Of a DNA stretch of 64,000 nucleotides, positions 8,017 through 25,655 are shown piece by piece. Where the stretch lies: NCBI RefSeq assembly GCF_018736065.1, contig NZ_CP076128.1, positions 1,736,001 through 1,800,000 on the forward strand, given 5' to 3'. Source of the DNA: Flammeovirga kamogawensis (GTDB taxonomy: Bacteria; Bacteroidota; Bacteroidia; Cytophagales; Flammeovirgaceae). A model generated the notes under the pieces. The model saw only the letters and a program-made list of their open reading frames with translations, had not been told where the DNA came from and did no database searches. The position numbers and the translations under genes were made by a program. Each line of letters opens with the position of its first letter. The stretch's first letter is position 1.

Positions 8017-8084
8017 GTTCGGTTTTTATATTATGAATACTTCCAAATAGAAGATTTATAATTGATAGAATTGTAATAATATTG

Positions 8085-8115
8085 GGAGGTCATAAATTTT
8101 ATGACCTCCTTTTTT
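8085..8115 (+). terminator. Rho-independent terminator of rimP-nusA
   Basis: The GGAGGTCAT/ATGACCTCC stem (8085-8093 with 8101-8109) has AT pairs closing the loop and is followed by TTTTTT. Confidence 0.9.
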
Positions 8116-8253
8116 GTTATAAAAAGAAGAAAAGCAATCAAAATAATTGTAAACATCTTGCGTTTAAGTGCTCATTTTTGAAGAATAACAATAATAAGTG
8201 CAAAAAGGTAGACATCTATTACAATTAAATTTAAGTTTTATGAAACAAACTTA

Positions 8254-8261
8254 TATCTTTG
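8254..8261 (+). promoter_or_regulatory. Putative infB promoter (-7 box)
   Basis: TATCTTTG matches the Bacteroidota housekeeping -7 consensus TAnnTTTG and is followed by CAC. No clear -33 TTG is visible at the usual spacing. Position after the nusA terminator supports an independent infB transcript. Confidence 0.6.
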
Positions 8262-8283
8262 CACTCTAGGAGTGTTCACGTGT

Positions 8284-8349
8284 ATGGGTTCGTCATTGAA
8301 TTGCTCCTCAAAGCATTTCGCTTATAATTTGATTGCTGTGAAGCAATAA
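8284..8349 (+). CDS. Possible 21-residue leader ORF upstream of infB
   Basis: ATG at 8284 opens a short frame encoding MGSSLNCSSKHFAYNLIAVKQ and ending in TAA at 8347-8349, 30 bp before the infB start. An AGGAG lies at 8268-8272, and a CTCCT inside the ORF could pair with it. It may be a translated leader or chance; I cannot assign a function. Confidence 0.2.
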   Translation: MGSSLNCSSKHFAYNLIAVKQ

Positions 8350-8379
8350 TTACGAACAAAGTATTACGAAAAGGAATAT

Positions 8380-11300
8380 ATGGCAGATCAAAAAATGATC
8401 AGAATAGGCCAAGCGGCCAAAAAATTAAACGTTGGACACTCAACGCTAGTCGAGCAATTGAAGAAGAAGAATATCGCTATCGAATCTTCGTCTCCAAATG
8501 CTAAGATTACGCAGGAGCATTTCGAAATGCTGAAAAAGATGAATGCTAAATCTATGCAAGAGAAAGCAGAAGCATCTCAAATCTCTATTTCGTCTCAAGT
8601 AGGAAATACTGTGATTGAATCTAAGAAAAAGAAAGGTCCAAAAACAGAGAACAAAGAGGACGATCATCTGATCATTAAAAATTCTGCTCCATCTGAAAAA
8701 ACCTCTTCGAATCCTAAGAAAGAAAAACCTGCAGAGCAAAAGCCTGAGCCGGAAGCATTCAGCGGACGTCCAGGTTTAAAAGTTGTTGGTAAAATGGATC
8801 TTGAAACTCCTAAAAAAGTTGAAAAGAAACCTACAGCTAAAAAACCTCAAGCTCCTGCTAAAGATAAACCAGCTCCTGCCCCTAAAGCAGAAGCTACAAA
8901 ACCTGCTGTTAAAGCGGAAAAACCAAAAGTAGAAGCTAAAAAACCGGTTCAAAAAGAAGAACCTAAAGCTTCTCCTGCGAAAGCAACAAAAGCTCAGGAA
9001 ACTAAGCCAGAGCAACCAAAGCAAGAAGTGAAGAAACAAGAAAACAAAGGAAAGCCTGCTCAAAAGGTTGAGAAGGCTAATAAGCCAAAAGAGGCTACTA
9101 CCGAGGTAAAAGCGCCAGCCCCTACTAATGAAGAGGCTACAGCAGGCGAAAACAAAGCAGCTATTAGTGCAAAAGCTGACGAATTGAAAGGACTTACTGT
9201 TGTTGGTAAGGTAGATCTTTCATCTTTTGAGAACCGTCGTAAGAAAAAACCAAAACCGGTTGCTTCTTCTGATGATAAAAACGCTCAAAAGAAACGTAAG
9301 AGAAAACGCGTTCCTGTTGGAAACTCTGACGGTAAAGGACCACAAGGCCAACAAGGTCAAGGTGGTAATCGTCAAGGTGGAAACCGTGGTGGTCAAGGAC
9401 AAGGTCAAGGTGGCGGTAATCGTCAAGGTGGTCAGGGTCAAGGCGGAAACCGTGGACCTGGACAAGGACAAGGTGGAAACCGTGGTGGTCAAGGACAAGG
9501 TCAAGGTGGTGGTAATCGCCAAGGTGGTCAAGGTCAAGGCGGAAACCGTGGACCTGGACAAGGAAATAGAGGACCTGGACAAGGTGGCGGTAACCGTCAA
9601 GGTGGACAAGGTCAAGGACAAGGCACTGGAGAAAAGACATTCCGTAACGCAGATGCTCAATCAAGCAGAAGCGGTAACAATAAGAAAAAAGGAGGAGCTA
9701 AGAAGGGTAAGGTATCTGAAAAAGATATCCAATCTGGAATGAAACGTGCAAACTCTCAATTAAACCAATCAGGGTTTAAATCTACTCGTGGTAAACATAA
9801 GCAAGCTAAACGTAGTAAGCGTGAAGCTGAAAACGAAGCACGTTTACAGAAAGAGGCAGCAGAACAACACATCATTACAGTTACTGAATTCATTTCTACA
9901 AATGATTTAGCAACAATGATGGATATTAGTGTAAGTGATATTATTATGACTTGCATGAACAATGGTATGTTCATCTCTATCAACCAGCGTTTAGATAAAG
10001 AAACAATTGAGTTAATTACTACTGAATTTAACTTTGAGGCTAAATTTACTTCTGCTGAAGAAGAAATTGATGCTCCTCTTGAAAAAGAAGACAAGCCAGA
10101 AGATTTACAGGAAAGAGCTCCAATTGTAACAATCATGGGTCACGTTGACCACGGTAAAACATCATTACTTGATTATATCCGTAACGAAAACGTAGCTGAT
10201 GGTGAAGCAGGTGGTATCACACAGCACATTGGTGCATACGATGTGACTACTAAATCTGGAAAACGTATCGCATTCTTAGATACACCAGGTCACGAAGCGT
10301 TTACAGCAATGCGTGCCCGTGGTGCTAAAGTTACCGATGTTGTAATTATTGTAATTGCAGCAGACGATAATGTGATGCCGCAAACAAAAGAAGCAATCAA
10401 TCATTCACTATCTGCTGAAGTGCCGATTGTAATTGCAATCAACAAAGTTGATAAACCAAATGCGAACGTTGATAATATTAAGAATCAATTATCGCAAATG
10501 AATATACTTGTTGAAGATTGGGGTGGTAAATATCAAGTATTTGAAATTTCTGCCAAATCTGGACAAGGTATCGACGACTTATTAGAAGGTGTTATCTTAG
10601 AATCTGAAGTATTAGAACTTAAAGCTAACCCTAACAAGAACGCTGCTGGTACAATTGTAGAAGCATCTCTTGATAAAGGTCGTGGTTACTTAGCAACAGT
10701 ATTAGTACAAAATGGTACTATGCGTGTTGGTGATGTAATGCTAGCTGGTGGTTACTATGGTAAAGTGAAAGCAATGCTTGACCATAGAGGACACCGATTG
10801 AAAGAAGCTCCACCTTCAACTCCTGTACAGGTATTAGGTTTAAGTGGTGCTCCTCAAGCTGGTGATAAGTTAAATGTTCTTGATTCTGAACGTGAAGCTA
10901 GAGAAATTGCAAACAGACGTGAGCAATTAGCTAGAGAGCAAAGTTTAAGAGCTTCTCAACGTCCTAACCTTGATCTATTCAAGCGTTTAGCACAAGGAGA
11001 ACTTCGTCAGTTGAACTTAATTATCAAGGGTGATGTGGATGGTTCTGTTGAAGCACTATCTGATTCATTATTGAAATTATCTAACGATGAAGTAGAAGTT
11101 AGAATTATCCATAAAGCTGTTGGAGCCTTGACTGAGTCAGATATCCTATTGGCTGCTGCTGATAAGGAAAACCCTACTCTAATCATTGGTTTCCAAGTTC
11201 GTCCAACTAAGAATGCAAGAATACTTGCTGAGAAAGAAGGTATTGAAGTACGTCATTACTCAGTAATCTATAACGCTATCGACGATGTTAAAGACGCTAT

Positions 11301-11655
11301 GGAAGGTCTATTAGATCCAGACTTAGAAGAAAAAATCGTTGGTAATGTTGAAGTACGTGATGTATTCAAAATTACTAAAGTTGGTACTGTTGCAGGTTGT
11401 TACGTTACAGATGGTTACATCAAGCGTAACTCGAAAATACGTATTATCCGTGACGGCGTAGTTATCTACGGCGGTAGCGAAGGTGGTTCTATTGGTGCAC
11501 TGAAACGTTTCAAAGACGATGTGGCTGAAGTTAAATTCGGTTACGAATGTGGTTTGAGTATCGAAAAGTACTCTGACATTAAAGTTGGTGACGTTATCGA
11601 AGCATTCGAGGTTACAGAAACTAAGCGTAAGTTAAAAAGCAATAACAGCAACTAA
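8380..11655 (+). CDS. infB: Translation initiation factor IF-2
   Basis: This 1091-residue GTPase delivers fMet-tRNA to the 30S subunit. Order: a helical IF2-N motif ([21 protein letters not shown], about 7-27), then a long Lys/Pro/Ala/Glu-rich disordered region (about 80-310). A Gly-Gln-Asn-Arg-rich repeat follows (about 320-416), then a second IF2-N-like domain (about 500-550). The G domain has G1 GHVDHGKT at 587-594, DTPGHEAF from 634 and NKVD from 688. Domains II-IV follow to the end. The length is large for bacterial IF-2 because of the N-terminal extension. It has its own promoter and a terminator directly after it. Confidence 0.97.
9381..9572 (+). repeat. 96-bp tandem repeat within infB (two copies plus partial units)
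   Basis: Two consecutive 96-bp units (9381-9476 and 9477-9572) encode a 32-residue Gly/Gln/Asn/Arg block, with [10 protein letters not shown] at the start of each unit. The two copies differ only near the end of the second. Shorter [16 protein letters not shown] pieces flank them to about 9625. It is typical slippage or recombination-prone low-complexity coding DNA. Confidence 0.85.
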
Positions 11656-11675
11656 GTTTGCTTGCTAAAATATAT

Positions 11676-11708
11676 AAAGGTCACTATTTAACGATAGTGG
11701 CCTTTTTT
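11676..11708 (+). terminator. Rho-independent terminator of infB
   Basis: AAAGGTCACTAT pairs with ATAGTGGCCTTT (one G-U pair) over a short loop, followed by a T run, just after the infB stop. Confidence 0.88.
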
Positions 11709-11832
11709 GTTTTAATCATATTTTAAATTAAGGCACATAAAACCTTAAAAGGAAGTGTACTCGTTGTAAACAACAAATTTATATATCCTTCTAATACTCT
11801 ACATACATATTTATTTCACTTAAATTTTAGAC

Positions 11833-11868
11833 ATAAAAAAAGCTACCAAATAAATTGATAGCTTTTAA
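11833..11868 (-). terminator. Terminator at the end of the glucan utilisation operon
   Basis: On the minus strand AGCTATCA pairs with TGGTAGCT (one wobble pair) around an AT-rich loop and is followed by seven T. It lies 17 bp beyond the stop of the last GH16 gene. Confidence 0.82.
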
Positions 11869-11884
11869 GTTAAGGGTCTTAATG

Positions 11885-13708
11885 CTAATTAATTAATAAC
11901 TGAGTTGTATAAGTACCTTGCTGGCCAACAACTCTAATTGCATAAATACCTTTAGATAGATGAGGTAAAACTATTTTATTTTGACTCACCTCTGTATACT
12001 CAATAATCAATCTACCTTGTAGATCAAATAAAGACACATCGCGCACACTACTGCCGAATATTGTTAATGTTTGATTCGATTTTGATGGATTTGGAGCGAT
12101 AACATATTTTGTTTCTATAAAACCACCTGCTGATAATGGAATGTCATCAATACAACCGCATGAATTATCATTTGATATTTGTTCATCATTTTTCACCACT
12201 GTATTAAAGGTAAAATCTGATATTTCTATCCCTCCTCTCATTGCCGAAGAGAAACCATAATTAATATATAATTTAACTCCTCCAACTCTATTTAAATTCA
12301 TAGTAGATGGATCAAAAGAATACGTGTATCTCCATATATTACAATCAACTTGCATAGCATCAGATCTTATTCTAAAATTATCTCCACTAATGTCGTTTCC
12401 ACTCTCATTCAGTAAATCAACTCTCATTTGATCAGGGAATAAACCATCTTTAAATTTTAAATCAATTGTAAAGTTTACATGATCATTTAAATCATAGATT
12501 TCATCAAAAGTATAGAAGATATATGGGTTCACTCCAGGGTCTTCTACATCAAATAAAACGCAGCTTACTGTATCACTTCCATTTAAAGAAAAAGCACCTT
12601 CAAAAGCTTCAGGAACACTCCAAGCTGAAGCTCCATTTTCATTTACTGGAGCAAAAGAAACTTGTGGTGAAGTAGGCATTCCTTGAATTATTTTCACATT
12701 AAATGTAGAAGTATATGTATCACAATTTCCCACTACTGAAGCCTTTAATTCTCCACTCTCGGCACTGTCAGACCATTCTACAGTAATTGTATTAGTAGAT
12801 TGCCCATTTACAATAGAAGCCCCATTTGGCACTTCCCATGTAACAACACCATTTACACCATCAACAGTATAAGTTTCTGTTGTAGACTTATCTGCAAAAG
12901 AGGCCCCTTTAATAGACATTTGAGGAGTTGTATTTTGATAAACCCTCACATAATCAATTTCCATTGTTGCAGGCAAGGCTGTATCATCAGTAGGACCTCC
13001 AACAGAACCCCAATTACCACCCATTGCAATGTTTAAAAGTAAATGAAATTGTTTATCAAATGGCCACTCTTTATAAGTTCCATGTTTTGTAAAAGTAAAG
13101 TAGTTCTCTTCGTCTACAAATAATTTAATTTTATCCTCATCCCACTCTAAAATATAATCGTGGTAATTAGTTGTTGCGTCACTTATATCAATATGTTTAC
13201 CAACTTGAGTGTTTATTGAATGATGATAAGATTCTGTATGTACAGTACCATGAACAACATTTGGATCGTAACCAACATGCTCCATAATATCAATTTCACC
13301 ACTAGATGGCCAGCCACCATATTCCCAATCTGTTGGTAACATCCATATTGCAGGCCAAGTACCCTGCCCTTTTGGTAATTTTGCTCTAACTACAATTTTA
13401 CCATACAACCAATCTCCTTTGCCTTTAGAAACTAAACGGGCAGAAGTATAATATTTACCACCAAAATCTTCTTTCCTAGCCGTAATTTTTAATTTTCCTC
13501 CAGCTACTTGAGCATTGGTTAGGCGATCAGTATAATACTGATCTTCGTTATTACCCCAGCCATCGCCTCCTGTATCATAACCCCACTTTTCAGTGTCAGG
13601 TGCGCCTGAGTAATTAAACTCGTCAGACCATACCATTTCATAGCAATCATCTTGAGCAAAAATGGTTAATGGTAATATAGTAAGTAAAGTTAAAAGTAAG
13701 TTTTTCAT
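11885..13708 (-). CDS. GH16 endo-beta-1,3-glucanase (laminarinase) with T9SS sorting tail
   Basis: The 607-residue secreted enzyme has, in order: signal peptide (1 to about 19, ending IFAQ); GH16 domain (about 24-258) with catalytic GEIDIMEHVG (nucleophile E138, D140, acid/base E143) and flanking WPAIWMLP; an Ig/PKD-like module (about 262-342); a beta-sandwich, carbohydrate-binding-like module (about 348-503); and a T9SS type A C-terminal domain (about 535-607, with APNPSKSNQTLTI, LFDLQGRLI and LPHLSKGIYAIRV). The ExDxxE form with beta-bulge is typical of laminarinases and lichenases. It is the last gene of the locus, 12 bp after the lipoprotein GH16. Laminarin specificity is inferred from family and context. 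Confidence 0.93.
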   Translation of the reverse strand: MKNLLLTLLTILPLTIFAQDDCYEMVWSDEFNYSGAPDTEKWGYDTGGDGWGNNEDQYYTDRLTNAQVAGGKLKITARKEDFGGKYYTSARLVSKGKGDWLYGKIVVRAKLPKGQGTWPAIWMLPTDWEYGGWPSSGEIDIMEHVGYDPNVVHGTVHTESYHHSINTQVGKHIDISDATTNYHDYILEWDEDKIKLFVDEENYFTFTKHGTYKEWPFDKQFHLLLNIAMGGNWGSVGGPTDDTALPATMEIDYVRVYQNTTPQMSIKGASFADKSTTETYTVDGVNGVVTWEVPNGASIVNGQSTNTITVEWSDSAESGELKASVVGNCDTYTSTFNVKIIQGMPTSPQVSFAPVNENGASAWSVPEAFEGAFSLNGSDTVSCVLFDVEDPGVNPYIFYTFDEIYDLNDHVNFTIDLKFKDGLFPDQMRVDLLNESGNDISGDNFRIRSDAMQVDCNIWRYTYSFDPSTMNLNRVGGVKLYINYGFSSAMRGGIEISDFTFNTVVKNDEQISNDNSCGCIDDIPLSAGGFIETKYVIAPNPSKSNQTLTIFGSSVRDVSLFDLQGRLIIEYTEVSQNKIVLPHLSKGIYAIRVVGQQGTYTTQLLIN

Positions 13709-13720
13709 AGCGTAGCTTAA

Positions 13721-14569
13721 TTATTTCTGATATACTCTAACATAATCAATATAAAGTGTCTGTGGCCAGATGGCTTCATCTATACCTTTCAATCCTCCCC
13801 ACATTCCTCCAACAGCAAGGTTAAGAATCATATGGAATCTTTGATCATAAGGCCATTCTTTATACGAATTGTGCTCATTTTTAAAAGTGAAATATTTTTG
13901 ATCATCTACAAAGACACTGTATTCTTCTGGTCCCCATTCTACAATGTATTCATGGAACTCACTTTCAGCATCTTTAATAGCAATTGCTTTCGTTTTATTA
14001 GTCCCTATTGAATGATGATAAGAGGCTGTATGAGCAGAAGCATAAATACTATCTTTCTCATAGCCTACATGCTCCATAATATCAATTTCGCCACTATTGG
14101 GCCATTTACCGTACTTCCAATCTGTAGGCAACATCCATATTGCAGGCCAAGTACCTCTTCCAGATGGTAATTTTGCTCTAATTACAAATTTACCGTATAA
14201 CCAATCTCCTTTATTTTGAGAGACTAATCTAGTTGATGTATAATCAAATGTTTTAGTAGAAATAGGGTCATTATATTTTTCTTTGATAGCGGTAATTTCT
14301 AATACTCCATTAGTAATTTTTACATTTTGAGACCTATTAGCTGTATATGCTTGCAACTCATTATTACCCCATTGCCATTTATTTCCTTCAACATCATAAC
14401 TCCATTTTGTTGTATCAGGCATTCCATCTGTATTAAATTCATCAGACCATACCAAATGATACTCACTCGATGTATCAGAAGCTACATTGTTTACTGTTTT
14501 AGTTTCTTTTTTTTGATTACAGCTCAATAATAAGCTAGCTATTGCAGATAGTAGTAGTATTCTTTTCAT
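13721..14569 (-). CDS. GH16 beta-glucanase lipoprotein
   Basis: The 282-residue protein starts with a lipoprotein signal (MKRILLLSAIASLLLSC, lipobox cysteine C17) and is otherwise one GH16 domain (about 37-282). Catalytic residues lie in GEIDIMEHVG: E161, D163, E166. Substrate-cleft motifs WPAIWMLP and LNLAVGGMWGG are present. It is closely related to the GH16 domain of the next gene but lacks accessory modules and the T9SS tail, so it should be held by lipid on an outer-membrane or periplasmic face. It would produce or shorten beta-1,3-glucan oligosaccharides at the membrane. It is in the operon, 86 bp after GH3 with a hairpin between. Confidence 0.93.
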   Translation of the reverse strand: MKRILLLSAIASLLLSCNQKKETKTVNNVASDTSSEYHLVWSDEFNTDGMPDTTKWSYDVEGNKWQWGNNELQAYTANRSQNVKITNGVLEITAIKEKYNDPISTKTFDYTSTRLVSQNKGDWLYGKFVIRAKLPSGRGTWPAIWMLPTDWKYGKWPNSGEIDIMEHVGYEKDSIYASAHTASYHHSIGTNKTKAIAIKDAESEFHEYIVEWGPEEYSVFVDDQKYFTFKNEHNSYKEWPYDQRFHMILNLAVGGMWGGLKGIDEAIWPQTLYIDYVRVYQK

Positions 14570-14655: not shown

Positions 14656-17013
14656 TTAGAATGAAACTGATTCAGAAACTTTAAATTCTGTTGATTGATC
14701 TCCAATCATTAATCTAAAATCTCCAGCTTCAACTATTTTTTTATTATCAGCTCCAATAAATGCCAAATCTTTTCCATTCAATTCAAACGTAACTACTTTT
14801 GATTCTCCTGGCTTAAGTGTGATTTTTTCAAATCTTCTTAACCTTTTATTGTCTGGCGTAATAGAAGCATAAAGGTCCTTTGTATACAATTGGACAACTT
14901 CTTTCCCTTCTACTTTCCCAGTGTTCTTTACAGTAACAGATACTGTAAAATCTGCATTTGGAAGAATTGATGCAGAAGAAATTTTAATATCTGAATACTG
15001 GTATGAAGTATAACTTAAACCAAATCCAAATGGATATTGGAATGGTAAAGATGAATTGTAATCATACATACCTTCCATTTTCTCAGAAGCTTCTGACGGC
15101 TTATGGTCATATGTTCCTAATGAGTTAGGATACATTGGGTATGAATAAGGTAATTTACCACTTGGATTTACATCACCTGATAAAATATCAGCTAAAGCAT
15201 CTCCACCAAAATTACCCGGTAAATATGTATGTACAACTGCAGACATATCCCCTTCAAATTGAGAAATTAAACGAGGTCGTCCTTCATTTAATACCAATAC
15301 TACAGGCTTTCCTGTTTTCGCAAGAGCTTCTGCTAACTTTCTTTGATTTTGTGAAATATACAAATCATGTAAGTTACCAGGAGTTTCTGTATATGTATTC
15401 TCTCCTAAACAAAGTAAGATTACATCAACTCCATCAGCTGCTTTTACTGCTGCATCAATATCAATATTTTGCTCTTCGTGATATAAACCATCATGCTTAT
15501 ATTCAACTCCAGAAGCAAATTTCACATTGTCTTTTCCAAATTCATTTTGAACAGACTCTAATATTGTGTTATAATCTTGGGCAAATTCTTCTGTTTTTTC
15601 ACCTTGCCAAGAGTATGTCCACCCGCCGTTCAATGTACGCATTGAATTTGCATTAGGGCCTGTAACTAAAATTTTAGAATCTTTTGATAAAGGTAAAACA
15701 CCCTTATCATTCTTTAATAAAGTGATCGATTCAGAAGCCGCGTTATAAGCAATTTGCTCATGCTCTTTGCTTCCAAATTTAGGATAATCTCCTTTTTTAG
15801 GAGCAGGCTTTTCGAATAAGCCTAATTCCATTTTCACTTTTAATATTCTTTTTACCGCATCGTCAATTCTTGACATTGGTACCTCACCTTCGTTCACTAA
15901 CTCAATAAGGTAAGGAGCAAAATCGAAGTTATATGGAACCATCGACATGTCAATCCCTGCATTAATAGATTGTTTTACTGCTTCTTTATGCGATACAGCA
16001 ACTTTATCTCTATTGTGTAGGTTTTCAATATCTGCCCAATCTGTAACTACTAAACCTTCAAAGCCTAATTCTTCTTTTAAAAGTTTAGTCAACATCTCAT
16101 AACTAGCATGAACTGGCACTCCGTTAATAATTCCAGAATTAATCATGATAGTATGAGCTCCTGCATCAATTGCAGCTTTATACGATGGCAAATAATGCTC
16201 TCTTAATTCAATTTCTGGTAAATACGAAGGTGTTCTATCTTTACCAGAACGTTCGCTACCATAACCAATAAAGTGTTTGATACAAGCAGCTACTTTTGTT
16301 GGATCTGACAAATCATTGTCTTTTCCTTCGTACCCATCAATTGCAGCAATACCCATTTGAGATGTTAAATAAACATCTTCACCGTATGTTTCCCAAATAC
16401 GTGGCCATGCTGGGTTTCTTCCCATATCTAAAACCGGTGAAAAATCCCAAGGAATTGAACTAGCTCTAGTTTCATAAGCAGTTACTGCAGACCCCTGACG
16501 GTTTAATTCAGGGTTCCATGTTGCCGCCATACCAATTTGTTGTGGAAAAAATGTTGCTCCAGCCGTATACGTAGTACCGTGAATTGCGTCTACACCATAC
16601 AATACTGGAACTCCAATTTCTTTCATAGCTACCTTCTGAATTTGTGTAATGATTTCATTCCACTTTTCAGGAGTACGAGCTCTGTTATTGGCTGTATTTA
16701 ATACAGAACCAATTTTATATTTTTTGATAGCTTCTTCAAGTAACTTTTTGTCAAGTTCTAAAGGCTCATCACTTACAAATACACTTTCTCCTTTGGTAAT
16801 AACATCTAGAGTTATCTGAGTCATCTGCCCCACTTTTTCCTCTAAAGTTAACTGCATTAATATCTTATCTACTTTTTCTTCGATTGATAAGTTACTATTA
16901 ACTACTATTTCAATATTCTCTTTTTGTTTCTGAGGAACTTCTGGCGAATTAAATCCATAAAGTACAGAACAAAGAGCCGCTGTTGCAAGTCCTTTTACAA
17001 AAATGTTTTTCAT
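14656..17013 (-). CDS. GH3 beta-glucosidase (BglX-like)
   Basis: This family 3 glycoside hydrolase is exported. I prefer the ATG at 17013 (785 residues, MKNIFVKGLATAAL signal); the frame also opens at a TTG at 17028. Domain order is that of BglX: a (beta/alpha)8 domain with VLYGVDAIHG and CIKHFIGYG, the nucleophile aspartate in GFEGLVVTDW (about residue 325 from the chosen start), then an alpha/beta sandwich (LPLSKDSKILVTGPNA, LCLGENTYTETPG) and a fibronectin-III-like C-terminal domain (FTVSVTVKNTGKVEGKEVVQLY). It would release glucose from beta-linked oligosaccharides, probably in the periplasm. It follows the PKD lipoprotein gene with a strong hairpin between. Confidence 0.93.
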   Translation of the reverse strand: MKNIFVKGLATAALCSVLYGFNSPEVPQKQKENIEIVVNSNLSIEEKVDKILMQLTLEEKVGQMTQITLDVITKGESVFVSDEPLELDKKLLEEAIKKYKIGSVLNTANNRARTPEKWNEIITQIQKVAMKEIGVPVLYGVDAIHGTTYTAGATFFPQQIGMAATWNPELNRQGSAVTAYETRASSIPWDFSPVLDMGRNPAWPRIWETYGEDVYLTSQMGIAAIDGYEGKDNDLSDPTKVAACIKHFIGYGSERSGKDRTPSYLPEIELREHYLPSYKAAIDAGAHTIMINSGIINGVPVHASYEMLTKLLKEELGFEGLVVTDWADIENLHNRDKVAVSHKEAVKQSINAGIDMSMVPYNFDFAPYLIELVNEGEVPMSRIDDAVKRILKVKMELGLFEKPAPKKGDYPKFGSKEHEQIAYNAASESITLLKNDKGVLPLSKDSKILVTGPNANSMRTLNGGWTYSWQGEKTEEFAQDYNTILESVQNEFGKDNVKFASGVEYKHDGLYHEEQNIDIDAAVKAADGVDVILLCLGENTYTETPGNLHDLYISQNQRKLAEALAKTGKPVVLVLNEGRPRLISQFEGDMSAVVHTYLPGNFGGDALADILSGDVNPSGKLPYSYPMYPNSLGTYDHKPSEASEKMEGMYDYNSSLPFQYPFGFGLSYTSYQYSDIKISSASILPNADFTVSVTVKNTGKVEGKEVVQLYTKDLYASITPDNKRLRRFEKITLKPGESKVVTFELNGKDLAFIGADNKKIVEAGDFRLMIGDQSTEFKVSESVSF

Positions 17014-17041
17014 CGATTGATTATTCAAAAGGGAAATAAAA

Positions 17042-17088: not shown

Positions 17089-18639
17089 TTATTGTTCTAA
17101 TCTAAAATCAGAGATGTAGAATGTACCAGGACGAGTATGTCCTTCACCACCAATTTGGATGATGATTTTGTCGTAGAAAGTGTTATTTATAGCAGGAACT
17201 GAATAACTCCAATCCTTATTAGCATCTGTATTGACAGTTTTGAAATCAAATGTAACTTCAATCCATTCACCACTTTCATCTCTACCTGTAGATTGATCAA
17301 TAATATTATAACTAGATTCAGCACGTGTTCTCCAAGCCTCTTCATCTAAACTATTTTCTAATCTTAAAGCAACCGAAGATGACATAGCAACATCACCTAA
17401 CCAATCTGGAGTACTTGCAGCTGGCGTAGCTGTAGTATAATCATTAGAAGGTAAGAAATAGATTTTCATTTTAAATACATTACGTGTACTTAAATCTAAT
17501 CTAAAAGGAAGTTCAGCTTGATAATTTTGCCACCAACCAGCATCTCCTTCAGATTCTGTTCTCACATATCTACCTACATTTTCAGCATCATTTCCAGAAA
17601 CATCAATATTTGGAAAACCTACTGTAAAATCTAAATCTGCATCTGTAACAAACGTAATATTTGATGAGTCTGCAAAATTATCATAAATATCTTTTACTTC
17701 TAGTGGTTTCTCTATTATTGGTGGCTCAACATCTGCTATTGCCTTAGGAGCAAAACCATAATACCAAGCATTACCATCTGCACCTATAGTTCTTAAATAT
17801 AAATGCTCAGCAGTTAACTCGATAATCTCAAATTCTTTGCTATCACCAACATACCAACTTAAAAAAGCATCACCTTTTAACTCTAAAAACTTTTTACCAT
17901 CTTTTTCTGTAATAGCCCATTTCCAATCTGTAGTGGTTAAATCAGTCGCAATATTAAAACCATCACCACCAGCATCAATTTTTACTGTACCACCATAGTT
18001 TGCCATAAAGAGATCTTTTGCAGCTGGTAATACATGTGAATCTCCATTATTATTTAAATCGTATTTAAAATTATAAAGATTAAAAGTTAACTCGTCATCA
18101 TAGTGACCTAAAGTTGGTTTTTGATTTTTTGCTGATTTCCACCAATCAGGAGTTTGAGTTTCTACCGGTCCTAAACCATTATGTGCAATTACAAAACGCT
18201 CAAATTTCCAAACTTTACCATTAATAGAGTCTATACCCCCTGTTAAATTATTGAAATCTGGAGTATCCAAAAGTGAGAAATCAGTATTTTCTATTACAAT
18301 CGCTTTTTCACTAGTTGCTTGTCCTCCTTTTGAGACAATAGTTAATGTAACTCTATAATTACCCGCTAATGCGAATGGAGCTGTTACAATATCACCTTTA
18401 TCATTCCCTGTAGCTTCTTCAGTAGTATCATTTATAACACTATAATAATTCCAATATGCAATAGAACCAGGAGTAGTGTTTGTAAATTGAATGATGTTAG
18501 GATTGTCTGATGTAGGCTGCATAGTAAACGTTACATCATCAGATGTAGGAGCTGGTCCTACATCTGGTTTATCTTCCGTACAAGCAGTCATTCCTAAAAG
18601 AACAACTAAACTTAAGAATGAATATATATATTTTTTCAT
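17089..18639 (-). CDS. Surface glycan-binding lipoprotein with PKD domain (SusE/F position)
   Basis: The 516-residue lipoprotein has signal MKKYIYSFLSLVVLLGMTAC with C20 as the lipidated residue. Residues about 35-120 form a PKD/Ig-like domain (FALAGNYRVTLTIVSKGG). The remaining segments are unassigned beta-rich domains: about 135-300 with many Trp/Tyr (WKFERFVIAHNG, FLSWYVGDSKEF), and about 315-516 resembling a carbohydrate-binding sandwich (VALRLENSLDEEAWRTRAESSY, FYISDFRLEQ). Position right after susD is where PULs encode surface glycan-binding proteins. Glucan binding is inferred; there is no catalytic motif. Confidence 0.8.
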   Translation of the reverse strand: MKKYIYSFLSLVVLLGMTACTEDKPDVGPAPTSDDVTFTMQPTSDNPNIIQFTNTTPGSIAYWNYYSVINDTTEEATGNDKGDIVTAPFALAGNYRVTLTIVSKGGQATSEKAIVIENTDFSLLDTPDFNNLTGGIDSINGKVWKFERFVIAHNGLGPVETQTPDWWKSAKNQKPTLGHYDDELTFNLYNFKYDLNNNGDSHVLPAAKDLFMANYGGTVKIDAGGDGFNIATDLTTTDWKWAITEKDGKKFLELKGDAFLSWYVGDSKEFEIIELTAEHLYLRTIGADGNAWYYGFAPKAIADVEPPIIEKPLEVKDIYDNFADSSNITFVTDADLDFTVGFPNIDVSGNDAENVGRYVRTESEGDAGWWQNYQAELPFRLDLSTRNVFKMKIYFLPSNDYTTATPAASTPDWLGDVAMSSSVALRLENSLDEEAWRTRAESSYNIIDQSTGRDESGEWIEVTFDFKTVNTDANKDWSYSVPAINNTFYDKIIIQIGGEGHTRPGTFYISDFRLEQ

Positions 18640-18664: not shown

Positions 18665-20311
18665 TTAGTAACCTGCGTTTTGCTTTAACATTGAGTGTAA
18701 ATCAACTTCAACCTGTGGAATTGGTAAGAACCCTCTTTTTTCTACATCAAATGTTCTGTTATATGTCTCTGCAGTACCTATATCTCCAGTGAAATTATCT
18801 CCATTATCATTAATATAACTAGGATTATTATCAGTAGGAGGAGTTAAAACATAGTTTGTAACATCTAATTCTGAAGAAACATTTGACATTTGACCATTTG
18901 ACCATCTCAATACATCAAAATATCTATGACCTTCTAATGCCAATTCTACTCTTCTTTCTAACTTAATATCATCTAAAGTAATTTGTGATTTAGAAGCTAA
19001 CCCAGCTCTAGATCTAACTTGATTAAAATACCCTTCAGCTTTTCCTGCATCAGATGTTAAGTTTAATTCAGCAGCTAATAATAAAATATCTGCTAAACGA
19101 ATATAGTGGTAATTTTGAGCCCAGTTCAATGCTGGTTCATTAGAAGCTAGATTCCATGCATGAGTTGTATATTTTCTCGAGTGCATTGATGTAAAATTAT
19201 AATTAGCTACATAAACATCACCTTGCAAATCTATTAACTCTTTAGCATAAACAATTGTACCTGATTTACGAAGATCATTCGCCTCAAAAGAAGTCTCTAA
19301 TTCTCTACTTGGAGACATGAAACCCCAACCATCAGCTAGTAACGTACTCGAATGACTTCTTGGTCCTGACATTTGAGCTAATATATTACCATAAGAATAA
19401 TCACCCCAATCACCTGAACCAGTATTAGCAAAAGGAATTTCAAATAAAACTTCATTATTGTAATTACCACTTTGGTTGAAAAGATCTACATAATTAGTTG
19501 CCAAAGTAGTCCCTGAATTTGCAATAACATCATCTGCGATTGAAATAATATCAGATTTAGAAATTGCAGTACCACCTAAAACAGGTAATTCAGACTTATT
19601 ATATACCCCTGTATAGAACATGAAAATTTTCACCAATTCTGCTTTTGCAGCAAACTGATTTAAACGCCCTTCTTCTCCTTCAGGAATTGCAGTTGCCATT
19701 AATGGAATAGCATCCATAATGTCTTTTGCAATTGTAGCATATGTATTGTCTACTGTAGATTGCTCTATTGATTTCCATTCATCACCTGTTAAAACAGTTG
19801 TAAATACTGGAATATTCTCAAATAGTCTAACTAATTCAAAATAATAATGAGCTCTCAAAAAAGTAGCCTCTCCTTTATATTGATCTTTAATATCTGATTC
19901 ATTAGATGTAAAATCAATATTATCATAATTTGCTAAGAGAGTATTTGCTCTTTGAATACCTCCATAACATTTATTCCAAGCTGCTTGACCTGCTTCATTA
20001 TTTGTTTGTGCCTGAAACTTACTCATTTGTTGAAAGTAAGCCATATCATTACCATCAGGAGAACCTCCAACGTAAGCATCATCTCCCATAGCCATATCAA
20101 ACATTGGTGTACTGTTAGGAGCACCATTGTAATCTGAACGTAATTTCTCGTAGACACCTACTAATGCTTGTCTTGCTTCTGTAGAAGATCTGAAAAAAGT
20201 ATCTGAAGTTTGAGCATTCGTTGGTTGAAGCTCTAAGTAATCTGCACAAGATGTCATTGATAATGAACCAAATACAAGACTACCTGCGATTAATATATGT
20301 TTAATTTTCAT
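18665..20311 (-). CDS. SusD/RagB family nutrient-binding outer-membrane lipoprotein
   Basis: The 548-residue protein starts with a lipoprotein signal (SLSMTSC, C22) followed by the typical DYLELQPTNAQTSDTFF. TPR-like helices are seen in ATFLRAHYYFELVRLFENIPVF (about 148-169) and in the C-terminal LNWAQNYHYIRLADILLLAAELNL and ERRVELALEGHRYFDVLRW segments. The end FLPIPQVEVDLHSMLKQNAGY is the classic SusD close. It forms a lid over the SusC barrel and binds the glycan. It starts 14 bp after the susC stop and is co-transcribed. Confidence 0.97.
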   Translation of the reverse strand: MKIKHILIAGSLVFGSLSMTSCADYLELQPTNAQTSDTFFRSSTEARQALVGVYEKLRSDYNGAPNSTPMFDMAMGDDAYVGGSPDGNDMAYFQQMSKFQAQTNNEAGQAAWNKCYGGIQRANTLLANYDNIDFTSNESDIKDQYKGEATFLRAHYYFELVRLFENIPVFTTVLTGDEWKSIEQSTVDNTYATIAKDIMDAIPLMATAIPEGEEGRLNQFAAKAELVKIFMFYTGVYNKSELPVLGGTAISKSDIISIADDVIANSGTTLATNYVDLFNQSGNYNNEVLFEIPFANTGSGDWGDYSYGNILAQMSGPRSHSSTLLADGWGFMSPSRELETSFEANDLRKSGTIVYAKELIDLQGDVYVANYNFTSMHSRKYTTHAWNLASNEPALNWAQNYHYIRLADILLLAAELNLTSDAGKAEGYFNQVRSRAGLASKSQITLDDIKLERRVELALEGHRYFDVLRWSNGQMSNVSSELDVTNYVLTPPTDNNPSYINDNGDNFTGDIGTAETYNRTFDVEKRGFLPIPQVEVDLHSMLKQNAGY

Positions 20312-20325
20312 TATTGAATCAATTC

Positions 20326-23300
20326 TTAGAATGTAACATTTAAACCAAGTAGATAAGCTCTAGCTTGTGGGTATGAACCATTATCAAAACCTGTCCACGA
20401 ACCTCCATGAGCTACTTCAGGATCCATTCCTGAGTAATCTGTAATAGTAATTAAATTGTTACCTGATACATAAACTCTTAATTTACTCATACCTGCCTTT
20501 TTTGATATTTGCTGAGGTAATGTATAACCGATTTGAAGGTTTTTCAATCTTAAATATGAAGCATCTTCAATGTGTACCATATCGTTTATCCTTGTGAAAT
20601 TTTTATTTTGATCGGCATACGTAAAACGTGGGAATTCATTTGTTGTTCCTTCACCAGTCCAACGATCTAAATATCTTACAGGGTAATTTTGAACTTCTAA
20701 CAGATCTGATGGACGAGTTGTACCATTTACTAACTTTCCACCAGCTTGACCTTGCCAAAACATTGAGAAATCAAAACCTTTGTAATCCATTCTTACATTA
20801 AGACCATACATCCATGAATGCACAGGGCTTCCAATATCAGTTCTATCATTAATATCAATTTTACCATCACCATTAATATCAACATATTTGATATCACCTG
20901 GTTGTGCTTCTGGTTGAATTGGATTACCTTCTTTAGCATGTGCATCAATATCTCCTTGATTTTGGAAGATACCATCCGTTTTGAAACCGTAGAAGTATGG
21001 TAGTGCGTGCCCTTCTTCCATCATTAACTGACCTTCAACCCCAAATAATCCAGGACCATAAACTTTACCGTCTCCATTTGCTATTTGAGTTACTTTATTA
21101 TCATTGTATGATGCATTTGCGGTAATATCAAAATGGAAATCACCATCTCTCTTTGAATATGTAACAGATGCCTCTATTCCTTGATTTGTTACTGTTCCTA
21201 AGTTATATAAAGGCCCACCAACACCTGTGAAACCAGGTACAGGTTGTGTTCCTAATAAATCTTGACGTTCTCTTGAATAAACATCTAAAGTAGTTGTAAT
21301 TTTATCGTCTAAAAAGCCAGCATCAATACCTACATTGATTTCTTCTGCTGCTTCCCATTTTAAATCTGGGTTAGACATTCTTGTAATACCATAACCTGGC
21401 ACCATGTTTTGTGAAGTTCCGATTGGATAAGAAGGTGTGTTACCAAATAATTCTAAGTAACCAAATGAACCAATGTTCTCATTACCCACTCTACCCCAAG
21501 AAGCTCTCAGTTTTAAGAAGTTAACTACATCACTTGATTTTAGGAATTCTTCTTGCGAAAGAATCCAACCTGCTTGAACTGAAGGGAAGAAACCAAACTT
21601 GTTGTTAGGTCCAAAGTTAGATGAACCATCATAACGAGCTGTAGCACTTAAAAGATATTTATCTTTATAATCATAACCTACTTTACCAAAGAATGAAACA
21701 AGACGGTGTTCCCAATTACTACCCCAAGCTTTTTGAGTATCATTATCTGCTCCGTTAGATACCCATGCATTTTCCCAGCCAGGTATTTGCAAATCATTTC
21801 TAGCAGAACCTTGATCTCTTCCTGAGCTATTACGTAATGTAGTACCTGCTAAGAAATTTAATTTATGACCTTCTCCAAGATCCAAATCATAAGTTAATAC
21901 ATTCTCCCATTGGAATGTTAAATAATTGCCAGCTTGTTGATTTATACCTGAAGTCGCTGTTTTAGCTACATCATTATAATAAGCTTCTGGATTATAATTT
22001 CTATTATACCAGTTACCTACATCAATACCAGCATCTGTTCTAAAACGTAAGCCTTTGATTCCTGGAGTGACTTCTATAAAGATATTACCTAAAAATTTAT
22101 TACTAGCATCCTCACTATAAGTATTATTTATTCTAGCCATTGGGTTAGTAATCTCTCTTAATTCTTGATCAGAAATAGCATAGTAACGACCATTCTTATT
22201 AGCTGGCTTAATAGCAAAAGTATCATACAAAGCAATTACAGCTGGATCATCTTGCCATACTGTTGTTAATGGATCATGCAATAATGCATTCTGTAAAACA
22301 CCTCCGAACTGGTTTTGCTCATTAATACCTGCCTTTTCTTCTCTAGAGAAAGTAATATTTGAACCAGCTTTAAAATATTCTGAAATCTTATGAGATGAAT
22401 TTAATCGAACTGTATACCTGTCAAAATTTGATTTCTCAGGTGCTACAATACCTTTTTGACCAAAATAGCCAACAGACGCCATAAATTGAGAATTTTCAGT
22501 ACCACCTGTCATTTGAACATTATGGCTTTGAATTGGTGCTGATTTGAACATTTCATCTTGCCAATTAGTATCAGTCTGGTTATTTGCCATATCATCTGAA
22601 GAGAATCTAGGATTCTTACCACCATTTATAGCACCTTCATTATGAAACATCATGTATTCATTTGCATTCATAACAGGAGTTTTTCTCCAAGGCTCTTGAA
22701 CACCATAGTAACCATCGTAAGAAACGATTGTTCTTCCTTCTTTACCTTTTTTAGTTGAAACTAAAACTACACCGTTTGCTCCACGTGAACCATAAATAGC
22801 TGCAGAAGCTGCATCTTTTAATACTTCAATAGATTCAATATCATTTGGGTTTAGAAAATTGATGTTGTCCATTTGAACTCCGTCAACTACGTATAACGGA
22901 GAGTTAGAACCGTTAGAACCTGTACCACGAACACGAATGTCAATACCTGCACCTGGCTGACCTGATACTGGAGTAACAAGTACACCTGGTGTTTTACCTT
23001 GTAATGATTGTGCTGCGTTTTGTACTGGAGTTTGCGTAATATCTTCAGATTTAACTGATGCAATTGCACCTGTTACAACTGATTTCTTTTGTACTTGATA
23101 ACCTACAACAACAACTTCTTCAAGTTGCTCTACGTCCTCATCTAGCTTTACATTAAATGTAGTTTGCTGACCTATTACTACTGTTTTTGCAGTGTAACCA
23201 ATAAAAGAGAAGATAATTTCTGTAGCGTCTGCATCTAATGATAATTTAAACTGACCATCAAAATCTGTGATAGTACCAGTAGATGAACCTTTAATTTTAA

Positions 23301-23451
23301 CGTTAACACCTGGTAGGGCGCTTCCATCTTTAGAGTCTGTAATTGTACCAGACACGATTCGTTCTTGGGCAGAGACTAAGCCCGCCGACATAAACAACAG
23401 CATACCTAAAAACAAGGCTACTAGTTGTTTTGATTGTAGAAGTAATTTCAT
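20326..23451 (-). CDS. SusC/RagA family TonB-linked outer-membrane transporter
   Basis: The 1041-residue transporter has a signal peptide (1 to about 28, ending VSAQ), a carboxypeptidase-like regulatory domain (about 32-110, SGTITDSKDGSALPGVNV), a TonB box (EEVVVVGYQ, about 111-119), a plug domain with PLYVVDGVQMDNINFLNPNDI and the SusC signature YGSRGANGVVLVSTKKG (about 222-238), then a beta barrel to the aromatic C-terminus (LLGLNVTF). It imports oligosaccharides using TonB/ExbBD energy and pairs with the adjacent SusD. It is the first structural gene of the locus, 317 bp downstream of the regulator-like gene. Confidence 0.97.
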   Translation of the reverse strand: MKLLLQSKQLVALFLGMLLFMSAGLVSAQERIVSGTITDSKDGSALPGVNVKIKGSSTGTITDFDGQFKLSLDADATEIIFSFIGYTAKTVVIGQQTTFNVKLDEDVEQLEEVVVVGYQVQKKSVVTGAIASVKSEDITQTPVQNAAQSLQGKTPGVLVTPVSGQPGAGIDIRVRGTGSNGSNSPLYVVDGVQMDNINFLNPNDIESIEVLKDAASAAIYGSRGANGVVLVSTKKGKEGRTIVSYDGYYGVQEPWRKTPVMNANEYMMFHNEGAINGGKNPRFSSDDMANNQTDTNWQDEMFKSAPIQSHNVQMTGGTENSQFMASVGYFGQKGIVAPEKSNFDRYTVRLNSSHKISEYFKAGSNITFSREEKAGINEQNQFGGVLQNALLHDPLTTVWQDDPAVIALYDTFAIKPANKNGRYYAISDQELREITNPMARINNTYSEDASNKFLGNIFIEVTPGIKGLRFRTDAGIDVGNWYNRNYNPEAYYNDVAKTATSGINQQAGNYLTFQWENVLTYDLDLGEGHKLNFLAGTTLRNSSGRDQGSARNDLQIPGWENAWVSNGADNDTQKAWGSNWEHRLVSFFGKVGYDYKDKYLLSATARYDGSSNFGPNNKFGFFPSVQAGWILSQEEFLKSSDVVNFLKLRASWGRVGNENIGSFGYLELFGNTPSYPIGTSQNMVPGYGITRMSNPDLKWEAAEEINVGIDAGFLDDKITTTLDVYSRERQDLLGTQPVPGFTGVGGPLYNLGTVTNQGIEASVTYSKRDGDFHFDITANASYNDNKVTQIANGDGKVYGPGLFGVEGQLMMEEGHALPYFYGFKTDGIFQNQGDIDAHAKEGNPIQPEAQPGDIKYVDINGDGKIDINDRTDIGSPVHSWMYGLNVRMDYKGFDFSMFWQGQAGGKLVNGTTRPSDLLEVQNYPVRYLDRWTGEGTTNEFPRFTYADQNKNFTRINDMVHIEDASYLRLKNLQIGYTLPQQISKKAGMSKLRVYVSGNNLITITDYSGMDPEVAHGGSWTGFDNGSYPQARAYLLGLNVTF

Positions 23452-23768
23452 TTCAAAAAATTAAAATGCGATAGAATAGATTTAAATAAGTTAAGCGATA
23501 ATTTCCTTATTTTTTCACTATAAAAAATGTAGTTAATACTTGACGTCGTGTATTCTTTACATTTCAAACTTCAACTTATTCTTTCAAAATCACAAATTCA
23601 GCAGTGATTAGTCCAAAAAAAAATATCACTTAAAAAAAATAGAAATTCATCACTGTAAATCAGATAGTTACAGATAAAGCGTACTGAATACACTAAGATT
23701 TATTATCACTTAAAAAAATGTAATTTTAACATTAAAATGCATAACAAATCTAAAAATAGACAACCTTT
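23452..23768 (-). promoter_or_regulatory. susC upstream region with repeated TCACT-type motifs
   Basis: This gap between the regulator-like gene and susC holds a 15-bp direct repeat TATCACTTAAAAAAA at 23624-23638 and 23704-23718, exactly 80 bp apart. Related copies are TCACTATAAA at 23515 and TCACTGTAAA at 23650. A CAAATCTA at 23745-23752 (TAGATTTG on the minus strand) could be a -7 box, but with no -33 element at normal spacing. No terminator was seen after the regulator gene. The motifs are candidate operators; function is inferred. Confidence 0.45.
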
Positions 23769-25655
23769 CTAGTTTAAAATAAGCTCTTCCCAACCTTTTT
23801 GTTTCAGTAAATCTTCAGAACCTAGTGCCTCTTTTTTCAATTCCATAGACTCTTTAATCTTCTTGGAGAACTTCCAACATGTATTCTGTCTCATCTCTAG
23901 TATCTCAGAAAGTTTAGTTGAAGAAATATCTCCATCTTTAGAGAAAACAATGAACACCATATAGAATGCTTTTTGAATAGGGAAATGTAATCTATGAAAC
24001 AAAGTACCAGAAGTAACAGATTCATTATAATTACATTTTTTACATCTTCTAGAATTCACTCCAGTTCCTTTAGCGTAGTCTGTTCCTCCACATTTTTTAC
24101 ACGTGAATCCTTCTTTCCATTTAATTTCTTCTAAATAATTGTAGCACATCTCATCAGAAGGAAACATTTTTTCAAACTCTTCAAAAGTTACTTCTTGCAT
24201 TAAAACCCTTGCTGTTTCTAAATGCCCTACATCTTCTATAAGTTGTTCGTTTTCTACGGTAAGCTTTTTATTTAGGCTTTGAATCTGTAATCGTTGCTTG
24301 TTTAATTCATCGTTTACCCATTCAAGTTCTTTGTTTTTTATATCAATTACTTCTTTCTGTTTTGCTATCTCATTTGTACGCTCTATTACTTTATCTTCAA
24401 TTACTTTTTCTCGTACTTTTAAATCTTCAATTAATTGATGTTGCACTTTCTCCTTTTCTTCTTTCAGAACTTTAAATTTTTCAAACTGAGAAAGCGTCAT
24501 AAATAGGCCTGTTAAAAGGAGACCTAGATTAAATGCATAAACAATAATTATATTATCAGAAATAAAGATTCCATAAACACGTAATACTTGAAGTGTAAGC
24601 CCCGAAATAATTACAACGTAACCAATAAGGAAATAAGTAATTTTAGTTTCCTCTCTTCTTATATCTTTAAGTAAATAGATAAAAATTGCTATAAATGGAA
24701 TTAGGAAAGTAGGTAAAGACCAAATAGACTCATTTATTCCTTTAAAAATTAAAAAGTAAAGTGCGTTAACTATAGTAATAGCCCAAATAGACATATAAGC
24801 ATTAAAATACTTATCACGCATCTTTAAAAAGTGGGTTGATAAAAGAACAATCGAAAGCATACTTAACGTGGAAGCATACTTCATTAATAAATAATTTAAT
24901 TCCGGATAGTTTACAAATAAGTATTGAGAACCTAGATTATCTTCTGTTAAACCTACAAGGATACTTGTTAAGAGAAAACCAACAAGATAAATCAAGGTTT
25001 TTTCTCCAATACTAAAATAAAGAAGTATACTTGATAAAATCAGACAGATTAAAATTCCATAATAAAGTCCCAATAATAAATATTCTGTATTTGAATAAGA
25101 GAGAAAAGTATTGACTTTACTTAATTTATAAAAGAGAACATTCCTAAATTTCGATTCATATTTTAAGTAAATGGTTACAACCTCTCCATTATTAACATTA
25201 ATATTATCTATTGGGAATATTATGTTTTTATGTTGATACTTTCGTTTAGAAAACTTATGATCATAACCTGCAGCTTCTAAATAAACGGTAGGTCTGCCAT
25301 CTACACTCATAAATGCTGTTACACTTCCTAAGTGACTATCTGGAATTTCAAATAACCATCTATCTTTTGATAATGCATTTCCAGTTAATTGTACTTTCAC
25401 CCAAAAAAACTCTGCCTCATCAGACAAAAATATCATGTCTTTAGACATAGATTCAAATTTCAAAGAGTCAGCAATTACTTGCTTTAATGTCATTGTATTT
25501 GAAGGGTCTTTTAAAACCAAAATAGAAGAAGAGGGTATAAATACCTTTTGCTGTAACATAGGTATTTCAACAATATTATTAGTGTTCTCTGCTTTTAATA
25601 CGGTAGATAGAACACAAATAAAAACAATTGATAGTTTTATAAAGGATAGTTTCAT
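23769..25655 (-). CDS. 7TM-DISM membrane sensor fused to an IS1595-transposase-like zinc-ribbon/helical domain; putative PUL regulator
   Basis: The 628-residue protein reads, in order: signal peptide (1 to about 22); an extracytoplasmic beta-rich 7TMR-DISMED2-like domain (about 28-185, with AEFFWVKVQLTGN and DRWLFEIPDSH); seven hydrophobic helices (about 190-390); and a charged coiled coil (about 393-485). Then comes a zinc ribbon with C519-x2-C522 and C538-x2-C541, and a segment VTSGTLFHRLHFPIQKAFY...ISSTKLSEILEMRQNTCWKFSKKIKESM (about 547-604). The last part closely resembles the N-terminal zinc ribbon plus helix-turn-helix of IS1595/ISXO2-type transposases. The catalytic DDE/DNxK domain is absent; the protein stops about 25 residues later. 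No kinase, GGDEF or AraC domain is present. Direct upstream position to susC suggests a membrane-tethered regulator of the glucan locus. Domain calls are by eye. Confidence 0.75.
   Translation of the reverse strand: MKLSFIKLSIVFICVLSTVLKAENTNNIVEIPMLQQKVFIPSSSILVLKDPSNTMTLKQVIADSLKFESMSKDMIFLSDEAEFFWVKVQLTGNALSKDRWLFEIPDSHLGSVTAFMSVDGRPTVYLEAAGYDHKFSKRKYQHKNIIFPIDNINVNNGEVVTIYLKYESKFRNVLFYKLSKVNTFLSYSNTEYLLLGLYYGILICLILSSILLYFSIGEKTLIYLVGFLLTSILVGLTEDNLGSQYLFVNYPELNYLLMKYASTLSMLSIVLLSTHFLKMRDKYFNAYMSIWAITIVNALYFLIFKGINESIWSLPTFLIPFIAIFIYLLKDIRREETKITYFLIGYVVIISGLTLQVLRVYGIFISDNIIIVYAFNLGLLLTGLFMTLSQFEKFKVLKEEKEKVQHQLIEDLKVREKVIEDKVIERTNEIAKQKEVIDIKNKELEWVNDELNKQRLQIQSLNKKLTVENEQLIEDVGHLETARVLMQEVTFEEFEKMFPSDEMCYNYLEEIKWKEGFTCKKCGGTDYAKGTGVNSRRCKKCNYNESVTSGTLFHRLHFPIQKAFYMVFIVFSKDGDISSTKLSEILEMRQNTCWKFSKKIKESMELKKEALGSEDLLKQKGWEELILN

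Follow-up and report, generated by a model that had tools for sequence, protein, structure and literature searches.

What a membrane receptor would do with the DNA-binding end of a transposase, and which genes it might control with it, is the question raised by a gene on the reverse strand of the window (the whole 64,000-nucleotide stretch of the Flammeovirga kamogawensis genome analyzed here, contig NZ_CP076128.1, positions 1,736,001 to 1,800,000). This gene (23769..25655) encodes, from an ATG start, a 628-aa membrane receptor that is predicted to be a one-component regulator. The next gene downstream on the same strand, and its predicted first target, is susC (20326..23451; 1041 aa), which, like the susD reading frame that follows (18665..20311; 548 aa), served as seed for the susC and susD profiles used below. 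The rest of the locus, also on the reverse strand, consists of a 516-aa gene with a lipoprotein-like N terminus as judged by eye (17089..18639; no Pfam family at E<=0.001), a GH3 glycosidase (14656..17028), a GH16 (13721..14569), and a GH16 with a secretion tail (11885..13708), the last three assigned by Pfam. Two GH16 genes and one GH3 gene presumably point to a beta-1,3-glucan such as laminarin.

The architecture that an earlier note had read from the letters of this gene was borne out by profile searches and structure prediction (all coordinates on the reverse strand). A hydrophobic N-terminal segment at approximately residues 1-22 (25590..25655), likely the proposed signal peptide and modeled as a helix at residues 2-20, is followed by the beta-rich outer domain, which matches 7TMR-DISMED2 (residues 45-173, 25137..25523; Pfam E 1.1e-16, 61.4 bits against a cut-off of 22) and is a beta domain in the full-length model. 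The seven hydrophobic helices belong to the 7TMR-DISM_7TM domain (PF07695; residues 191-388, 24492..25085; Pfam E 6.9e-23, 82.1 bits against a cut-off of 29), and the long coiled coil corresponds to a single modeled helix, likely a coiled coil, that starts in the last membrane helix (residues 374-469, 24249..24536). The CxxC/CxxC motif formed by Cys 519, 522, 538, and 541 lies within a match to PF12760, Zn_ribbon_IS1595 (residues 499-543, 24027..24161; Pfam E 2.7e-9, 37.3 bits against a cut-off of 25.4), and a helix-turn-helix (HTH) is predicted at residues 560-611 (23823..23978). The Pfam matches at E<=10, from which HMMER filters remove most of those above ~0.1, include no DDE transposase domain (PF12762 among them), in keeping with the missing catalytic domain noted earlier, and no kinase, receiver, or AraC domain, so that the make-up of a hybrid two-component system (histidine kinase, receiver, and AraC HTH) was not found in the receptor in that search.

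In the AlphaFold2 model of the full-length receptor (pLDDT 84.2), an N-terminal helix, the beta domain, and seven membrane-region helices follow each other in this order, the last helix continuing as the helix 374-469 that leads from the membrane domain toward the C-terminal module, with residues 468-487 at low confidence. The model of the module (pLDDT 90.6) comprises two helices, two short zinc-ribbon strands, and then HTH-like helices at its positions 81-93, 100-107, and 111-132. As far as domain and structure predictions go, the sensor and the DNA-binding domain are combined in one membrane protein, as in one-component membrane regulators.

The earlier note had traced the C terminus to the zinc ribbon and HTH of IS1595-type transposases. 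The zinc ribbon is above its Pfam cut-off, and the HTH part, although subthreshold by profile (residues 557-607 score 23.5 bits with the NCBIfam IS1595 transposase model NF033547, whose cut-off is 75), is clear in the alignment with transposases: the module is 37-41% identical to the N termini of the four IS1595-like transposases aligned with it. Complete transposases of this type (L281-L285, 296-311 aa) are found in genomes of the same order. In all five, the Pfam IS1595 DDE domain begins at residue ~129-141, after the zinc ribbon (above the Pfam cut-off in three of them and just below it in two), and the ends of the frame are flanked or overlapped by inverted repeats. In an alignment of 47 proteins, including one true transposase, C504 and F494 are conserved without exception, as are the four cysteines, and several HTH residues vary little or not at all. 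A tree of the module (159 rows and 144 columns, quick search) places 14 transposase rows on one side of a branch with an SH-aLRT value of 93 (the tool's mark being 95) and the rows of the 7TM, Reg_prop, and single-helix proteins opposite them; with few columns, long branches, and some transposase rows cut by contig ends, this split allows a single capture of the module without showing it.

Mobile relatives of the module are also seen close to the source organism. Genome G002 of the same genus (L040-L043, L288, and L289) carries twenty near-identical module matches, of which 14 or more lie at contig ends, and the five copies compared have the common left end TAGGTATCTAAACTTAGATC; judged by their sequences, these copies are a multicopy IS1595-like element, a sister of the captured module. 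In the source genome itself, a module match with two in-frame stops (L005, 1501-1803) is probably a transposase remnant.

The search with four modules returned matches, some of which are transposases, in all 9 genomes of the genus, in 13 of 18 genomes of the family, and, with the best 13 candidates per genome scored, in 124 of 291 genomes and 53 of 115 genera of the order. In a sample of the phylum, where the best 10 candidates per genome were scored, 51 of 395 genomes had a match; among the matches listed, frames of >=600 aa came only from the receptor's own order and two genomes of the same class, and most of the remaining frames were transposase-sized. For closer comparison, a collection of named genomes was searched, and the best 80 of 232 relatives (from Flammeovirga, Flexithrix, Pedobacter, Marivirga, Belliella, and others) were kept, so that the sample tilts to close relatives. 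The module and the 7TM domain lie in a single frame in 80 of these 80 relatives (best 80 of 232); 79 frames are 612-678 aa long, and the one of 475 aa (L111) appears to be split, the preceding frame containing another 7TM match. According to Pfam, 43 of the 47 aligned proteins have the 7TM domain, 43 have DISMED2, and 44 have the zinc ribbon; in one protein, besides the transposase, Reg_prop and Y_Y_Y replace the 7TM domain. When 30 7TMR-DISM genes were fetched from 14 genomes, 14 ended in the module, and 11 of the remaining 16 were kinase-like by eye. Another DNA-binding output is represented by the 7TMR-DISM receptor L174, whose C terminus resembles, by eye, a LuxR-type HTH.

Random placement of the homologs relative to polysaccharide loci was named in the earlier note as a potential refutation, but the placement of these genes relative to susC is nonrandom. 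Among the relatives (best 80 of 232), susC directly follows the receptor gene on the same strand in 34 of 78 loci with a gene downstream; in 45 of 80, it is no more than four genes away. The corresponding counts are 6 of 297 for random genes from genomes of the same set and 0 of 26 for 7TMR-DISM genes without the module, which have susC within four genes in 3 of 26 cases; the Fisher p values (1e-20 against random genes, 5e-6 against 7TMR-DISM genes for the next gene, and 4e-5 for susC within four genes) come from related, nonindependent genomes. The first 20 of the 40 7TMR-DISM control regions were chosen for lacking the module or for an unknown output; 12 of the 40 had no match to our own 7TM profile and were left uncounted, and 2 of the 28 matched regions carried the module (susC next in 0 of 2). 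Linkage to susCD above chance, the mark of a polysaccharide utilization locus (PUL) regulator, is therefore a property of this family.

The coupling of receptor to susC is loose, however, in that 44 of the 78 loci (best 80 of 232) have no susC directly downstream. At least one susC-next case occurs in 10 of 17 genera, a tally of the 45 loci with a genus name, the other 35 of the 80 coming from metagenome bins without one; no such case is seen in Belliella (0/4), Sporocytophaga (0/2), Persicobacter (0/2), or Echinicola, Cyclobacterium, Lunatibacter, and Mongoliitalea (0/1 each). In Flammeovirga, susC is next in 1 of 6 named loci, and 4 of the 5 named loci with the same upstream neighbor as the window gene have, in place of susC, a downstream gene of 802-815 aa on the opposite strand; the one such gene that was scanned, in L071, is patatin-like. 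Another sample of loci, drawn from the order and overlapping in part in species, several contigs being of equal length, gave susC next in 10 of 20 cases (one of them with a Reg_prop protein), and a third, chosen for odd architectures and extra paralogs, in 3 of 19.

Genes for polysaccharide breakdown also flank loci of the other kind. After eight judged near-copies were subtracted from the 35 loci without susC within four genes, the 51 flanking proteins of the remaining 27 gave 16 matches to six glycosidase families (GH81, 4; GH10, 3; GH18, 3; GH97, 2; GH20, 2; and GH3, 2), a rate that stands without a control. The source genome encodes three such receptors, the 628-aa protein included, and one short version, and the three other members adjoin, respectively, a GH81 gene, a GH18/GH19 chitinase gene, and a PfkB sugar kinase gene followed by a sugar-transporter-like gene. 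In the short version (236 aa), a single membrane helix and a coil can be made out by eye ahead of the module. The IS1595 Pfam model does not match its zinc ribbon, yet in the alignment this ribbon is 40% identical to the module. This gene (L004, 1207-1914; L010, 10901-11611) is located ~8.4 kb before the window start, divergent from the GH18/GH19 chitinase gene. A glucan product as the ligand, as suggested earlier, may thus fit the 628-aa receptor, given the two GH16 genes and one GH3 gene of the window, but does not fit the whole family, whose neighbors also include GH18/19, GH10, GH20, and GH97.

Evidence beyond the earlier note is provided by a paired motif shared by the regions upstream of susC. 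The motif was first seen by eye in 44 sensor-susC intergenic regions, the remainder after removal of those with identical last 60 bases. A de novo search that was started from random seeds and covered 32 cluster representatives yielded TTAATGTTTTTTAAGCGT with a likelihood of 157.9, compared to 63.3-76.5 in 12 dinucleotide-shuffled sets. The resulting profile, for which 32 of the 44 scored regions had served as the training set, finds a site of >=10 bits in 38 of the 44, versus 0 of 14 and 0 of 12 controls and 57 such sites in 800,000 random positions; sites of >=8 bits are found upstream of 0 of the 26 control susC genes, which make up a small set. In a leave-one-cluster-out test that began from the eye-derived consensus, p<=0.05 was reached in 22 of 32 regions and in 1 of 15 control susC upstream regions, 11 more of the 26 control regions drawn for this test having been set aside for a sensor in the same locus (4 of these 11 reach p<=0.05, three of them at 18-21 bits). 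The single control match, in L277, turned out to come from a locus that does contain a sensor, downstream of susCD, and was left out when the de novo profile was tested. An earlier profile from an eye-picked training set had reached p<=0.05 in 13 of 32 held-out regions versus 5 of 26 controls. In the L277 locus (8044-13748), the receptor downstream of susCD adjoins a Reg_prop/Y_Y_Y-SpoIIE protein, and susC keeps an upstream motif site of 12.1 bits.

The sites tend to come in pairs. Two or more 6-bit sites are present in 26 of the 44 regions (mean of 1.25 and at most 5 in shuffles), and a direct-repeat pair at 64-66 or 77-81 bp, spacing classes that were chosen after the data were seen, occurs in 21 of 44 regions and 15 of 32 clusters, compared to at most 1 in 100 shuffles and 0 of 14 controls. 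In the window, motif search places the predicted operator copies on the reverse strand at 23706..23723 (TTACATTTTTTTAAGTGA) and 23626..23643 (TCTATTTTTTTTAAGTGA), 80 bp apart, the same spacing as in F. pacifica. The best site of the window is a poor fit to the general profile (6.7 bits; leave-one-out p 0.20), and what speaks for the window's sites is that they are repeated, that they are rare in the genome, and that a paralog has such a site too. The 15-mer TTTTTTTAAGTGATA has 5 occurrences in the 6.97-Mb source genome, two of which are the window pair, and its backward control has none. The 14-mer has 8 (control, 1), four inside reading frames and four outside, the latter being the window pair, one in the intergenic region separating a paralogous sensor from GH81, and one upstream of GH65-GH3 in another susCD locus. 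In four Flammeovirga genomes in which susC is apart from the sensor, each of the four 78-79% susC orthologs, located elsewhere, carries a site of >=7.6 bits at a distance of at most 330 bp; the same search with ten more distant susC genes found one site within 330 bp (8.3 bits) and two further out (7.2 bits).

A second, similar-looking element, TAACTATCTGATTTACAGTGA, is located near the repeats in the window (23650-23679), and its form AACTATCTATTTaACAGgTAGTTAtG, partly an inverted repeat, was seen by eye near the repeats in L095, L106, L124, L126, L132, and L242-L244. Derivation of the operator from the terminal repeats of insertion sequences was also considered but found no support: the core resembled the reverse complement of the sister-element ends, with p values of 0.097-0.997 in a shuffle test on nine ends.

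On this evidence, the proteins described here are most likely membrane-anchored one-component regulators of polysaccharide loci with a transposase-derived DNA-binding domain. They might instead be membrane DNA-binding regulators of something else, such as their own gene, stress, or the cell surface, with the linkage to susCD stemming from the fact that PULs are gene-rich and mobile. Such a reading would account for the loci without an adjoining susC and for the 7 of 17 genera that have no susC-next case; we nevertheless consider it unlikely, because susC follows none of the 26 7TMR-DISM genes of these genomes that have another output, the 26 control susC genes have no upstream site of >=8 bits, and glycosidases recur, albeit at an uncontrolled rate, around the susC-less loci. 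Slightly less probable again is the view that the paired repeat serves a different regulator, the zinc ribbon/HTH acting by protein-protein contact or being vestigial. Binding of the motif by the receptor is a prediction, and the low leave-one-out score of the window's sites leaves some room for that view, but a vestigial module would hardly have kept its cysteines and several HTH residues invariant or nearly so, and the motif follows the sensor family, also at the paralog beside GH81.

A third possibility, that the gene is a receptor joined by chance or only recently to part of a transposase, or else an artifact of a frameshift, could be entertained as long as the reading rested on one sequence, all the more so since IS1595-like elements occur in the genus. 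It is now barely credible: the frameshift that the earlier note had named as a potential refutation is ruled out by the single frame in all 80 relatives (best 80 of 232), 79 of them full length, and the 7TM family is matched by 43 of 47 proteins. None of the three refuting outcomes named in that note was found, and its central proposal, a one-component membrane-tethered regulator made from a captured transposase N terminus, is accordingly supported at the level of sequence analysis.

In such a membrane-anchored regulator, the periplasmic DISMED2 domain would detect a degradation product of the polysaccharide on which the neighboring genes act, and the signal would travel via the seven membrane helices and the long helix to the cytoplasmic zinc ribbon/HTH, the latter presumably taken from the N-terminal region of an IS1595-type transposase whose catalytic part was left behind. 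Upstream of susC, a dimer or a pair of dimers may bind the two ~18-bp direct repeats, whose spacing is often 64-66 or 77-81 bp, and thereby switch the susCD-glycosidase operon; activation is assumed here by analogy with other PUL regulators.

The module is not confined to one type of sensor. A 1068-aa protein from the same GTDB family as the window (L260) combines Reg_prop repeats and Y_Y_Y with the zinc ribbon (Pfam), and its gene immediately precedes susC and susD. Three further Reg_prop/Y_Y_Y proteins that carry the module are encoded in genome G107; our own module profile finds all three, the Pfam zinc ribbon is above the cut-off in one, below it in another, and unlisted in the third, and susC is next in none of the three. 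Reg_prop/Y_Y_Y are the usual sensors of hybrid two-component systems, and the sensors of these module proteins can be likened to them. A tandem pair of zinc-module receptors is found in genome G127 (L273, 9654-13482). A wider reading, to which we give an even chance, is that Bacteroidota captured the IS1595-type module, perhaps once, and have since used it as a general output cassette on sensors of at least three kinds (7TMR-DISM, Reg_prop/Y_Y_Y, and a single membrane helix). These proteins would then form a further major class of polysaccharide-locus regulators beside hybrid two-component systems, SusR, and sigma/anti-sigma pairs, and their binding of two direct repeats at fixed spacing may echo the way in which a transposase holds two element ends.

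Precedents exist for parts of this design. The 7TMR-DISM receptors, reportedly named in a 2003 paper, share the DISMED2 and 7TM domains with the window receptor at the Pfam level and differ from it in output, which in the latter is the transposase-derived zinc ribbon/HTH. The IS1595-family transposases share the 37-41% identical zinc ribbon and HTH, whereas the receptor has no DDE domain and stays below the whole-family cut-off of NF033547. ChiS is a membrane regulator of chitin use. The DNA-binding domain of the ChiS family occurs on signaling proteins, including some with the 7TMR-DISM architecture (PMC8092284, figure 5 legend); this domain, different from the one described here, is a cryptic HTH variant found in Proteobacteria, and the main text of that paper contains neither "transposase" nor "zinc". 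Signaling helices link sensors to HTH domains at low frequency (PMC1592074). The hybrid two-component systems and SusR of Bacteroides PULs resemble the present case in that the regulator gene adjoins susCD (PMC3878776) and differ from it in that the window receptor has no kinase, receiver, or AraC domain; the words "transposase" and "7TM" are absent from the main text of the PUL regulation papers searched for them, PMC3878776 among these. In the titles and the opening parts of the abstracts of the papers searched, the receptor family is undescribed; subscription journals are mostly outside that coverage, and the 2003 7TMR-DISM paper may mention it. With these precedents, the kind of regulator is a known one, and its DNA-binding domain, the origin of that domain, the host group, and the operator appear to be new.

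Polysaccharide loci are the means by which Bacteroidota eat algal and plant glycans, and a regulator family that can be recognized from sequence, together with a predicted operator, would allow regulons and substrates to be proposed from genomes alone, for example in Cytophagales and Pedobacter, groups far from the well-studied gut Bacteroides. In bacteria, the family would also offer a clear example of a transposase whose DNA-binding domain came to serve as the output of a receptor and is reused on different sensors. The results suggest that polysaccharide use is controlled by a type of gene switch that is widespread and has so far escaped description.
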